Shown here one piece after another: positions 33,555 through 42,923 of a DNA stretch of 64,000 nucleotides (position 1 is the first letter of the stretch; each line of letters opens with the position of its first letter). A program made the translations under genes and the position numbers. The notes beneath the pieces are model-generated. The model was not told the DNA's origin and did not search any database. It saw only the letters and a program-made list of their open reading frames with translations. The DNA is from Peptoniphilus raoultii (lineage in GTDB: Bacteria > Bacillota > Clostridia > Tissierellales > Peptoniphilaceae), in NCBI RefSeq assembly GCF_900099555.1, contig NZ_FMWM01000002.1, forward strand, positions 1,361,629 to 1,425,628, given 5' to 3'.

Positions 33555-34817
33555 CTATACAAGCTGTCTATCTTTTACTACTAATTTTCCCTTATGGTAA
33601 ACTTCTTTTGTTAAATTTGTTGCAAAGAAATATAAAAGATAGTCTAAATTTTTACCATCAAATATTGTAATATTGGCATCTTTTCCTTCATCAAAAGAAC
33701 CCATTGTCTTTGCCCTGTCAACTGAATAAGCAGCATTAATTGTAACTGCATTAAAAACTTCAATTGGAGTAAGTTTCATAGCAAGGCATCCTAACTGCAT
33801 AATAAATTGTAAATTTGCTGTTGGGCAAGAACCAGGATTTGAATCTGTGCAAAGAGTTATAGCCATTCCTGCATCTAACATTTTCCTTGCAGGTGCGTAG
33901 GTATCTTTCATTAGTGAAAAAGTTGTTCCTGGGAGTAAATTTCCTATAACATTATTTTCTGCCAATAGTTTAATTTCCTTATCGTCAACAACCATTAAAT
34001 GCTCAGCTGAAGTTGTTTTAAGGTCAGCCGCAACATTAACTCCTCCTATATTTTCAATTTCGTCTGAATGAACACGAAGTTTAAAGCCATTTTCCCTAGC
34101 CGCCGTTAAAATTCTTTCAGTTTGTTCTGCAGTGAAAACGTCTTTTTCACAAAATACGTCACAAAATTCTGCAAGGTCTTTTTCCTTAATTGTTGGCATC
34201 ATATTTATGACTATATCAACATATTCGTCAGGATTTTTCTTATATTTTTCTGCTATGACGTGGGCAGCCATAAAAGTAGGAACAAGATCAATAGGAAGAT
34301 TTTCATTTAATTTTTTTATAACTTCAAGTTCTTTAACCTCAGTTTCTAGATCAATACCATAACCTGATTTGGCTTCAACACAAGTTACTCCATGGACCAT
34401 AAATTGTTCAACGAGTTTTCTAGTCTTTTCATAAAGTTCGTCAAAAGGTAATTCTTTTGTAGCCTTTAGGGTGGAAAGAATTCCTCCGCCTGCTGCCAAA
34501 ATTTCAAGATATTCCATGCCATTAAGTTTCATGGCAAATTCGTTTTCTCTTGAACCCCCATAAACAAGATGTGTATGTGCATCAATAAGTCCTGGAGTTG
34601 CAACGCATCCCTTAAGATCAATCATTTCTGTATTGTTATCTTTAAAATCCTTATATCCTTCCCCTTCCTCAACTTTTAAAATTTTTCCGTCTGCAATTGC
34701 AATGTAGGCGTTTTTTAAAATTGTGGCTTCGTTCATTTCCTTGCCCTTTAGGGGTCTTCCTAAGTCATTAGGTGAAAATACTTCTTCCAGATTATATAAA
34801 ATTTTATCAGCTTTCAT
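33555..34817 (-). CDS. hutI: imidazolonepropionase
   Basis: HutI hydrolyses imidazolone-5-propionate to N-formimino-glutamate. The 420-residue amidohydrolase shows the metal-binding [16 protein letters not shown] near residue 79, [23 protein letters not shown] near residue 245 and [16 protein letters not shown] near residue 325. Length is normal. The start at 34817 follows AAGGAGG. It is divergent from hutU, so the two middle enzymes of the pathway share the 238-base region 34818-35055. Confidence 0.97.
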
Positions 34818-35055: not shown

Positions 35056-37071
35056 TTGATAGATAATCAAATTTTGCAAAATGCAATGAAAGTAAGGCTT
35101 GATGTTCTTCCTGAAAAGAAGAGTTTTGAGTCAGGTATTAGGCGTGCACCTGACAGGGGATTTAGACTTACTAAGGACCAAACAAAAATCGCTCTTAGAA
35201 ATGCTCTAAGATATATTCCTGAAGAATACCATGAAGAACTTATTCCTGAATTCTTAGATGAATTAAAAACTCGTGGGAGAATTTATGGATACAGATTTAG
35301 ACCGGAAGGCAGAATCTTCGGAAAACCTATTGATGAATACAAAGGAAATTGCCTGGAAGGAAAAGCATTTCAAGTTATGATTGATAATAATCTTGACTTT
35401 GAAGTTGCTCTTTATCCTTATGAATTAGTAACATACGGTGAAACAGGTTCTGTTTGCCATGACTGGATGCAATATAATTTAATTAAAAAATACTTAGAAA
35501 TAATGCACGATGATGAAACTTTGGTTATGGAATCAGGACACCCTCTTGGACTTTTTAAGTCAAGAAAAAATGCTCCTAGAGTAATTATTACAAATGGTTT
35601 AATGGTTGGTCTTTATGACAATCTTGATGACTGGGAAATTGCTGAAGAAATGGGTGTTGCTAACTACGGTCAAATGACTGCTGGCGGATGGATGTATATT
35701 GGACCTCAAGGGATTGTTCACGGAACTTACAATACAATTTTAAATGCCGGAAGATTAAAACTTGGTCTTGGCGAAAAAGATAACCTTAAAGGAAAATTAT
35801 TTGTTTCTTCAGGACTTGGTGGAATGAGTGGGGCTCAAGGAAAGGCTGGAGATATTGCCGGTGCAGTTTCAATTATTGCTGAAGTTGATATTTCAAGAAT
35901 TGAAACAAGACTTGAACAAGGCTGGATTATGAAACTTGCTGAAAGCCCAGAAGAAGCTGTTTCCCTTGCTAAAAAGGCTTTAGAAGAAAAATCTACCCTA
36001 TCTATAGCCTACCACGGAAATATCGTTGATCTTCTTGAATACATGGATAAAAATAATATTCATATAGATTTACTTTCTGACCAAACTTCTTGCCATAATG
36101 TTTATAATGGTGGATACTGCCCAGTTGGCATTAGCTTTGATGAAAGAACAAAACTTCTTGCTGAAGATATTTCTAAATTCAGAGGCTTGGTTGATGAAAC
36201 TCTTCATAGACACTATGAAGTAATTAAGAATTTAGTTGCTAAGGGAACTTATTTCTTTGACTATGGTAACTCATTTTTAAAGGCAATTTATGACTCAGGG
36301 GTTAAAGAAATTTCTAAAAATGGTCATGATGACAAAGACGGATTTATTTGGCCTTCATATGTAGAAGATATTATGGGACCACTTTTATTTGACTATGGAT
36401 ATGGACCTTTTAGATGGGTTTGCCTATCTGGAAAACATGAGGATTTAATTGCCACTGACCATGCAGCTATGGAATGTATAGATCCAAATAGAAGATATCA
36501 AGATCATGATAATTATAACTGGATTAGAGATGCAGAAAAGAATAAACTTGTTGTTGGAACACAAGCAAGAATTCTTTATCAAGACTGCAAGGGCAGAGTT
36601 GCAATCGCTCATAAATTTAATGAACTTGTTAGAGAAGGAAAAATCGGTCCTGTAATGATGGGTCGTGATCATCATGACGTTTCAGGAACTGACTCTCCAT
36701 TTAGAGAAACTTCAAATATTAAAGATGGTTCAAATGTTATGGCTGACATGGCAACTCAATGCTTTGCCGGCAACTGTGCAAGAGGTATGAGTCTTGTTGC
36801 CCTTCATAACGGCGGCGGAGTTGGTATTGGTAAATCTATTAATGGTGGATTTGGTCTTGTACTTGATGGATCTGAAAGAGTTGATGAAATTATTGACCTA
36901 TCTTTAACTTGGGACGTAATGAGTGGCGTTGCTAGACGTAACTGGGCTAGAAATGAACACGCTATGGAGGTTTCATTGGAATTTAATAAGGAAGGCACAA
37001 GCGGAGCAATTACTCTTCCTTATCTTGTTAATGATGAATTAATTGAAAATGCAGTTAAGGATATGAAATAA
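35056..37071 (+). CDS. hutU: urocanate hydratase (long form)
   Basis: HutU converts urocanate to imidazolone propionate using tightly bound NAD+. The 671-residue protein contains APRVIITNGLMVGLYDN, NYGQMTAGGWMYIGPQGIVHG, SSGLGGMSGAQGKAGDIAG near residue 255 and HDVSGTDSPFRETSNI near residue 540. It exceeds the usual 550-560 residues, matching a longer class with an extended N-terminus and insertions. I use the TTG at 35056 because GGAGG lies 10 bases before it and no ATG fits; the next in-frame ATG is at codon 11. It ends at a strong terminator. Confidence 0.96.
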   Translation: MIDNQILQNAMKVRLDVLPEKKSFESGIRRAPDRGFRLTKDQTKIALRNALRYIPEEYHEELIPEFLDELKTRGRIYGYRFRPEGRIFGKPIDEYKGNCLEGKAFQVMIDNNLDFEVALYPYELVTYGETGSVCHDWMQYNLIKKYLEIMHDDETLVMESGHPLGLFKSRKNAPRVIITNGLMVGLYDNLDDWEIAEEMGVANYGQMTAGGWMYIGPQGIVHGTYNTILNAGRLKLGLGEKDNLKGKLFVSSGLGGMSGAQGKAGDIAGAVSIIAEVDISRIETRLEQGWIMKLAESPEEAVSLAKKALEEKSTLSIAYHGNIVDLLEYMDKNNIHIDLLSDQTSCHNVYNGGYCPVGISFDERTKLLAEDISKFRGLVDETLHRHYEVIKNLVAKGTYFFDYGNSFLKAIYDSGVKEISKNGHDDKDGFIWPSYVEDIMGPLLFDYGYGPFRWVCLSGKHEDLIATDHAAMECIDPNRRYQDHDNYNWIRDAEKNKLVVGTQARILYQDCKGRVAIAHKFNELVREGKIGPVMMGRDHHDVSGTDSPFRETSNIKDGSNVMADMATQCFAGNCARGMSLVALHNGGGVGIGKSINGGFGLVLDGSERVDEIIDLSLTWDVMSGVARRNWARNEHAMEVSLEFNKEGTSGAITLPYLVNDELIENAVKDMK

Positions 37072-37543: not shown

Positions 37544-37647
37544 ATTTATCTCCTTTAGTTTATTTTATATAAAATTTTTACTTTTTCAATTCAAAAGTCT
37601 TTTTTTTATAATTTTTTTGCTATATACTTTTATAGGGAGAGGAAACT

Positions 37648-38838
37648 ATGAAATACTTAAACGTACGCCAAGGAAAATTTATAAGAAGACTGAACAGGTT
37701 TATAGCTGAAGTTTCCATAAATGGAGAAATAAACTTAGCCTATGTGCCAAATACTGGTAGGTGTAAGGAAATTTTTTCTAATGGAGCGAACTGTTATCTT
37801 TCTGAAAATTTTTCTGACCAAAGAAAAACAAAATTTACCTTAATTGCTCTTGAAAAAAATCAAATGCTTATAAATATTGACTCTCAGGCACCAAATGCTG
37901 CCGTTGAAGAAGCTATAAAATCTGGGAAAATAGATTTCGATTTTGAAGTTACAAATTATATAAGAGAATTTACCTATGATAAAAGCAGATTTGATTTTTA
38001 CCTTGAAGGGGAAAATAAAAAGGCATTTTTAGAAGTTAAGGGAGTTACCCTTGAAAATTATGGAATTGCATCCTTTCCAGATGCACCAACTTTAAGAGGT
38101 TCTAAACACTTAAAAGAGCTAATTAAGGCAAAAAAAGAAGGCTATGAAGCCTATATTTTATTTTTAATTCAAATGCATGGTCCCCATGAATTTTATCCAA
38201 ATTATAAGACTGACAAGGCTTTTGCCAACTATTTAAAGGAAGCTGACCTTGCAGGAGTGAACATTCTTGCCTATGATTCTATTGTTAAGGAAGATGAAAT
38301 TATTTTAGACCATAAAATCGACTATAATCTCCACGAAATAATTTTAAAGCCAGCAAGGATGGAAGATAAAAAATCCGTTTTAAAAATCTATGATGACGGT
38401 TCAAAGTCTTTAAAGGCAATGGGCGTTGACCAATGGCAAGGAATTCAAAAACCAAATCTTGATAATATGAAAGAACTTGTTGATTCTAAAGAGCTTTATG
38501 TTTTAGACGACAATGGAATTGTTGCAACTGCAATTTTATCTAACTTTGAAAAAAATTATAATAGAATTGATGGAGCGTGGAAATATGAAGGAGAATATAT
38601 AGTAATTCATAGGTTTGCAGTATCTGGCTCCTTTAGAAATAAGGGCTATGCAAGAAAGCTCCTTTATGAAATTGAAAATTATGCACTAAATCAAGGCATC
38701 CATATTTTAAGAATTGATACCCACAAAGATAATTATAAGATGCAAAATCTTTTAAAATCCTGCAATTTTGAATATGCAGGCATAACTTATATATATGGGA
38801 ATGTTCCAAGACAGTCCTTTGAAAAACCTTTAAAATAA
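37648..38838 (+). CDS. SfsA-like nuclease fused to a GNAT acetyltransferase
   Basis: The 396-residue protein has two parts. Residues 1-230 are a complete SfsA: RRLNRFIAEV, YVPNTGRCKEIF, FLEVKGVTL near residue 127, and FPDAPTLRGSKHLKEL at residues 143-158. SfsA folds like a PD-(D/E)XK nuclease, and D117, E129 and K131 are plausible catalytic residues. Residues 231-390 are a GNAT acetyltransferase: ILKPARMEDKKSV, then IHRFAVSGSFRNKGYARKLL (motif A, acetyl-CoA binding) and IDTHKDNYKMQNLLKSCNF. Both are normally separate proteins. There is no stop or ribosome site at the join. The role of the fusion is unknown. GGGAGAGG precedes the ATG. Confidence 0.9.
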   Translation: MKYLNVRQGKFIRRLNRFIAEVSINGEINLAYVPNTGRCKEIFSNGANCYLSENFSDQRKTKFTLIALEKNQMLINIDSQAPNAAVEEAIKSGKIDFDFEVTNYIREFTYDKSRFDFYLEGENKKAFLEVKGVTLENYGIASFPDAPTLRGSKHLKELIKAKKEGYEAYILFLIQMHGPHEFYPNYKTDKAFANYLKEADLAGVNILAYDSIVKEDEIILDHKIDYNLHEIILKPARMEDKKSVLKIYDDGSKSLKAMGVDQWQGIQKPNLDNMKELVDSKELYVLDDNGIVATAILSNFEKNYNRIDGAWKYEGEYIVIHRFAVSGSFRNKGYARKLLYEIENYALNQGIHILRIDTHKDNYKMQNLLKSCNFEYAGITYIYGNVPRQSFEKPLK

Positions 38839-41744: not shown

Positions 41745-42923
41745 GTGCAAAATAATAATAACATTAATTTGTTAGGTTTTAAAGATGTAGTTTTTGATAG
41801 CTTTGACGAGGATAATGACTTTGTTTATGTTCATGCGTCTGTTAAAAAGATGAATGCTTGTCCTCACTGTGGTTCTAAAAAGATTTGGGTTCATGATCAT
41901 AGAATTCAAAAGATTAAGGATACTCACATTCGTGGAAAGAAATGTCTTATTCATTTAAAGAAAACAAGGTATGATTGCAAGTCTTGTGGCTGTCGTTTTG
42001 AAAGAGAACTTAATTTTATTGCTAAGGGTCATACTATGACTAATAGACTTGTTTTTGCTATTGTTGCTGAGTTTGATGAGCTCTACTCTATCTCATCTAT
42101 TGCTAAAAGGTATAATGTTTCTACTAACACTGTTTTTAGAATTTTAAATTGTTTAAGTGTTTCGAGAGATAAGCTTTCTGAAGTCCTTTGTATAGATGAA
42201 TTTAAAGGGGATAGTGGAAATATTAAGTACCAAACATCACTTCTAAATGGAGCTAAACACTCTATCATTAATATTTTACCTACTAGAGATATGAATTTTT
42301 TGTTTAGCTACTTTAAAAAAGTTCCTAACAAGGAGAGACAAGCTGTTAAGTTTTTTGTAAGTGATATGTCTAATACCTTTAAGTCTGTTAAGAATAGGTT
42401 CTTTAAGAATTCTATCCATATTGTTGACAGGTATCATTTCATTAGGCAAGTTTCATGGGCTTTGGAGAATGTTAGAAAGAGGATTCAAAAGGATATATCT
42501 TCTAAGCTTAGGAAGTATTTTAAGAGAAGTAGGAGTCTACTTACAAAACCTGCTTCTAAGCTAACAACTGATCAAGCTGAAGATGTTTCTCTAATGCTTA
42601 ATATTAGTGAAGATTTAAAATTAGCATATAGGTTAAAGGAGTTATTCTACCAATATGTTCTTACCCAACCCAATAGAGTTAGGGCAGCTAAATCTCTAAG
42701 AGAATGGATAAAAAGAGCTGAAGAATCTAATTTAAAAGAATTTAAAGCTTGTATCACTGCTTTTAATAACTGGTTTGATGAGATATGTAACTCTTTTGAT
42801 TATCCTTGGTCTAATGGTCCTCTTGAAGGCACACATACTAAGATAAAGACTTTAAAGAGAAATTGTTTTGGTATGAAAAATTTTAATTTATTTAGAAAAA
42901 GAATTATGTTTGCTTGTAAGTAG
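41745..42923 (+). CDS. ISL3 family transposase
   Basis: The 392-residue protein has two N-terminal zinc-binding pairs, CPHCGSKK and CKSCGCRF. A helix-turn-helix (SISSIAKRYNVSTNTVFRIL) follows. The DDE catalytic core is marked by LCIDEFKG (first D), FVSDMSNTFK (second D) and NGPLEGTHTKIKTLKR near the end (E). This is the ISL3 layout, and no frame is broken. The GTG start at 41745 has AGGAGGTGC upstream. It is followed by a palindromic terminator-like sequence at 42949-42966. Confidence 0.95.
   Translation: MQNNNNINLLGFKDVVFDSFDEDNDFVYVHASVKKMNACPHCGSKKIWVHDHRIQKIKDTHIRGKKCLIHLKKTRYDCKSCGCRFERELNFIAKGHTMTNRLVFAIVAEFDELYSISSIAKRYNVSTNTVFRILNCLSVSRDKLSEVLCIDEFKGDSGNIKYQTSLLNGAKHSIINILPTRDMNFLFSYFKKVPNKERQAVKFFVSDMSNTFKSVKNRFFKNSIHIVDRYHFIRQVSWALENVRKRIQKDISSKLRKYFKRSRSLLTKPASKLTTDQAEDVSLMLNISEDLKLAYRLKELFYQYVLTQPNRVRAAKSLREWIKRAEESNLKEFKACITAFNNWFDEICNSFDYPWSNGPLEGTHTKIKTLKRNCFGMKNFNLFRKRIMFACK

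Follow-up and report, generated by a model that had tools for sequence, protein, structure and literature searches.

SfsA proteins are found across bacteria and archaea. Structures have been solved, a nuclease-like site is present, and to our knowledge no function has been settled for them. GNAT enzymes generally hold acetyl-CoA at an R/QxxGxG/A loop and transfer the acetyl group to an amine. SfsA from Escherichia coli binds DNA without sequence specificity, and a nuclease is predicted from its fold and ID-EVK motif, although it might be another kind of hydrolase (PMC1189080). In the stretch of Peptoniphilus raoultii DNA analyzed here (64,000 nucleotides, referred to as the window), both domains are encoded by one gene. 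This is a new domain architecture from two known families, in one bacterial family. No description of an SfsA-GNAT fusion was found in the papers searched, and the one paper that names both does so in unrelated places; domain databases may list the architecture.

The fusion gene and its two domains

The gene has an ATG start and 396 codons with zero internal stops, as read directly from the sequence (Table 1). A preliminary description of the locus had proposed one continuous SfsA and GNAT protein of 396 residues with neither a stop nor a ribosome site at the join, and both points are borne out: the open reading frame is intact, both domains score above curated cut-offs, and no good internal start is present at the join. 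The in-frame ATG nearest to the join is M238, which lies inside the GNAT domain and is directly abutted by AAGG. An internal start yielding a free GNAT was rejected because the join lacks a suitable site. Alignments of the fused proteins run across the join with indels of one to two residues. The genome is 99.97% complete, and at E ≤ 1e-3 neither domain matches any gene in it other than the fusion.

Table 1. Position of the fusion gene, its domains, and its motifs in the window.
Feature	Positions	Strand	Basis
sfsA-GNAT fusion gene, 396 aa	37648..38838	+	One open frame; P. lacrimalis counterpart at 62% identity
Putative ribosome binding site AGGGAGAGGA	37634..37643	+	Read from sequence, 5' of fusion-gene ATG
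SfsA N-terminal OB domain (SfsA_N), residues 12-77	37681..37878	+	Pfam PF17746, E 1.1e-19, above gathering cut-off
SfsA PD-(D/E)XK-type RE domain, residues 80-216	37885..38295	+	Pfam PF03749, E 4.4e-46, above gathering cut-off
SfsA catalytic motif D116 ... E129-V-K131	37993..38040	+	Invariant in 48/48 family SfsAs
Join/linker, residues 217-230	38296..38337	+	No stop, no good internal start
GNAT acetyltransferase domain, residues 231-390	38338..38817	+	Pfam PF00583, residues 278-374; profile match 2pc1
DQWQ signature of GNAT subfamily, residues 261-264	38428..38439	+	Q262 and W263 invariant in 43/43 GNAT domains
Acetyl-CoA loop RNKGYA (R/QxxGxG/A motif), residues 330-335	38635..38652	+	Motif read directly; G333 in 93% of 43

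The N-terminal part had been described as a full SfsA, and the match to NCBIfam sfsA (TIGR00230) agrees, covering residues 2-220 with 185 bits (cut-off 126; E 1e-54). Its PD-(D/E)XK residues are intact. The preliminary description had placed these at D117, E129, and K131; E129 and K131 are right, while residue 117 is Phe and the motif Asp is D116. D116, E129, and K131 are conserved without exception in the 48 SfsAs compared. The nearest PDB sequences to this half are 4da2 and 4dap. An AlphaFold model was built from a shallow alignment (7 rows); its SfsA half is good and its GNAT half is poor, and it is uninformative on the relative placing of the domains. The SfsA half of the model aligns to E. 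coli SfsA (4dap) with Z 28.4 and rmsd 1.9 over 228 residues, and to the SfsA-DNA complex from P. furiosus (4dav, 4dav_A) with Z 27.0. Five SfsA genes from viral contigs were used only in structure alignment, and no GNAT relatives were found in viral contigs.

In the C-terminal half, Pfam Acetyltransf_1 (PF00583) matches with E 1.2e-12 and 48.6 bits (gathering score 20.7), and PF13508 scores 29.1 bits (cut-off 27). The profile of this half matches 2pc1 from Streptococcus agalactiae with E 2.9e-34, and 2pc1 is also its nearest PDB sequence. The acetyl-CoA loop is present as R330-N-K-G333-Y-A335, and its conservation in other GNAT domains is given in Table 1. Residues invariant across the 43 GNAT domains are Q262, W263, P269, Y304, H321, D357, T358, H359, N362, M365, G378, and R388. 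In the model, residues 281-396 have pLDDT <50, and many GNATs match the GNAT half at Z 9-10.5 (2pc1 at 9.7). Identity with RimI (TIGR01575) was rejected at 24.5 bits against an equivalog cut-off of 86.4, as was identity with aminoglycoside or streptothricin acetyltransferases; because these scores are far below the curated cut-offs, the GNAT half is none of these types. Two other forms of GNAT were observed. Orthologs in genus g21 (L104:3188-4015 and L105:3347-4234) have about 110-125 extra N-terminal residues that match no Pfam family and contain many hydrophobic stretches resembling a membrane anchor, and a paralog (L128:487-2124) has about 390 further residues, also matching no Pfam family.

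Recurrence and origin of the fusion

Peptoniphilus lacrimalis DSM 7455 carries the same fusion, with 62% identity over all 396 residues. A search of 130 genomes of the family found the fusion at approximately 38-42% identity in nine further genomes from three other genera (g2, g3, and g10). Thus the fusion recurs, a point that the preliminary description had proposed to check; it is present in 11 genomes from four genera, all within the family. No fusion was found outside the family in an order sample (249 genomes, including the 130 family genomes) or a phylum sample (398 genomes), nor among the class-sample matches listed (391 genomes, to E 1e-60), where a very distant fusion may escape. Nei-Gojobori dN/dS was 0.06-0.24 in both halves (six pairs), with synonymous sites near saturation in the most distant pairs. 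Purifying selection acts on both halves.

Unfused copies of the two genes are also frequently adjacent. Eleven other congeners (G002-G012) have separate sfsA and GNAT genes on one strand that share 10-43 nt, each read in its own frame, and another (G013) has the same gene order, but its GNAT gene is broken beside a run of undetermined sequence. Genera g18 and g32 have the same overlapping order (11-29 nt), whereas g9 and g14 have the genes side by side and divergently oriented. In total, 31 genomes from eight genera have the pair as neighbors, overlapping, or fused. About a dozen other family genomes with both genes have them apart; in many genomes, sfsA and GNAT are unlinked or just one of them is present. 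At 18 sfsA loci outside the family, sfsA stands alone with varied neighbors, and neither GNAT nor cob genes adjoin it.

These comparisons bear on whether the gene could be an artefact, produced by a sequencing error that removed a stop or by decay of the gene. The preliminary description had left room for this if the domains were separate in all close relatives. Most other congeners do have two overlapping genes, which is compatible with an error, but P. lacrimalis is fused. Because P. lacrimalis and nine other genomes share the fusion, sequencing error is ruled out; decay is at odds with both halves having dN/dS values far below 1 and with all motifs being intact. We consider the chance of an artefact negligible.

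Phylogenetic analysis of each domain separates the fused proteins. In the SfsA tree they form two groups, one consisting of the window species and P. lacrimalis (100/96) and the other of g2, g3, and g10. In the GNAT tree, the window species and P. lacrimalis are together (100/99) and apart from the other fused GNATs. Placing all fused rows in one clade was rejected by the AU test for SfsA (p 0.007) and for GNAT (p 1e-6). One clade of the lineage-ii fused GNATs, with genome G105 included, was not rejected (p 0.131). A single ancient fusion inherited by all was therefore rejected by both domain trees, and sfsA and GNAT were probably joined independently at least twice in these related anaerobic bacteria; two separate events give the simplest account. 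On parsimony alone, an older single fusion followed by two losses through fission, instead of two gains, is conceivable, but a single fused clade is disfavored by the AU tests.

The fusion would have originated in an operon in which the GNAT gene overlapped sfsA in another frame. With such an overlap, a small change of frame close to where sfsA ends suffices for joining, and a mutation of this kind may have been the route. In P. lacrimalis, a second GNAT gene that stands alone (L051:5174-5692) starts 4 nt past the stop of the fusion, and this free GNAT is sister to the two fused GNATs in the tree (96/93). This fits a tandem duplication before the species split, with sfsA becoming fused to one copy and the window species later losing the other, free one. 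Separately, an SfsA in genome G037 (L095:3677-4735) has a 124-aa C-terminal extension that weakly resembles GNAT: it scores 16 bits with the profile, where the highest of 2000 shuffles reached 9.2, and hhalign gives a probability of 5%. This extension is at most suggestive of a third, decayed fusion.

Gene neighborhoods and the role of the pair

In the window, the fusion gene has a gene for a small membrane protein on one side and, on the other, a gene for a UvrD-type helicase in convergent orientation. An ORF at 41745-42923 resembles an ISL3-type transposase by eye. In P. lacrimalis, homologs of the genes at window 33555-34817 and 35056-37071 are upstream of the fusion region, and mgtE and the helicase are downstream. 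The usual neighbors in g1, g9, and g14 are mgtE, UvrD, and nitroreductase. A different setting is found in g2, g3, g10, g18, and g32, where cobB and then cobQ directly follow the pair or fusion (measured overlaps are 4-16 nt), and several of these have gatCAB or a DedA-like gene upstream. The pair is therefore kept in two unrelated gene settings, and this is the best indication that the two are functionally linked.

The explanation we favor, with reasonable but limited confidence, is that this is a genuine two-domain protein derived from partners in one operon, whose products are probably needed together, in equal dose, for one process. Joining at least twice, together with the adjacency and overlap of the unfused pair in related genera, leads us to this reading. 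Since all motifs are kept, both catalytic activities are presumably present. By analogy with its family, the SfsA part, with its OB fold, PD-(D/E)XK fold, and intact D-ExK site, would bind nucleic acid and probably cleave it with Mg2+. The GNAT part would likewise be expected to use acetyl-CoA to acetylate an amine on some partner. The covalent link would give both domains equal dose and keep them close.

The preliminary description went further and proposed that the domains act on a common substrate. This goes too far, because genome G105 has lost sfsA and retains GNAT ahead of cobB-cobQ (L126:8889-9431), an additional free GNAT accompanies the fusion in P. lacrimalis, and both families often occur alone; these observations argue that each domain can work without the other. 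The data support a shared process or co-expression of SfsA and GNAT, rather than a shared substrate. The same observations agree with another possibility, in which the overlap reflects co-transcription or chance, the genes were fused by a nearly neutral change of frame made mutationally easy by the overlapping reading frames, and the domains act independently on unrelated substrates. We think this possible but on balance unlikely; fusion in at least two separate lineages with different gene neighborhoods, along with three kinds of adjacent arrangement across eight genera, exceeds what a random neighborhood would readily give. More doubtful is the proposal that SfsA and GNAT are a two-enzyme module of one pathway, for example acetylating an amine bound to nucleic acid (a nucleobase, an aminoacyl group, or a bound protein), with SfsA presenting or cleaving the nucleic acid. 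If this is true, the recurrent fusion would give a first indication of the function of SfsA.

The cob genes raise a more specific possibility, in which the pair would belong to corrinoid (cobamide) metabolism, with SfsA being a phosphodiesterase and GNAT an acyltransferase for corrinoid side chains, or the pair would regulate the pathway. The NCBIfam equivalogs cobB-cobQ directly follow sfsA-GNAT, fused or paired, in 12 genomes (lineage ii loci L064-L076, e.g., L067:468-4446), and every full-length CobQ in the 130 family genomes is in this setting (13 genomes, one of them G105 without sfsA). The gene preceding sfsA in g32 (L075:2252-3052) weakly matches CbiR, which we take to be a cobamide-remodeling enzyme, at 42 bits against a cut-off of 105. 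However, cobQ is absent from the window genome and all congeners searched, and these genomes keep the pair; corrinoid metabolism therefore cannot be its general role and was rejected as such. The absence of cob genes beside sfsA outside the family also weighs against a cobamide role, which we judge very improbable. Returning to the favored reading of two products needed in one process, a GNAT partner that is kept beside SfsA in three arrangements and fused at least twice is a testable clue to the role of orphan SfsA, and the fused protein could be purified as one enzyme and used to screen for substrates.

Comparison with known systems

The fusion protein shares with the SfsA family (COG1489, PF17746 and PF03749; structures 4dap and 4dav) the same OB and PD-(D/E)XK architecture, the D-ExK motif, and a full-length match at Z 27-28. 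Unlike the fusion protein, the solved SfsA members are single proteins of 230 aa without an acetyltransferase. The GNAT half has the DQWQ and DTHxxN residues in common with stand-alone Firmicute GNATs of the 2pc1/3h4q/2fia type, and its profile match to 2pc1 is full length. Those proteins stand alone and their solved members have no known function, whereas the GNAT half here is joined to SfsA. With RimI and the aminoglycoside and streptothricin N-acetyltransferases, it shares the acetyl-CoA loop and probably the GNAT fold. An SfsA with an added C-terminal domain is likewise found in other Firmicutes, where members of another family (L110-L112) have a C-terminal DUF123 domain joined to SfsA; the partner there is DUF123, and in the fusion protein it is GNAT.
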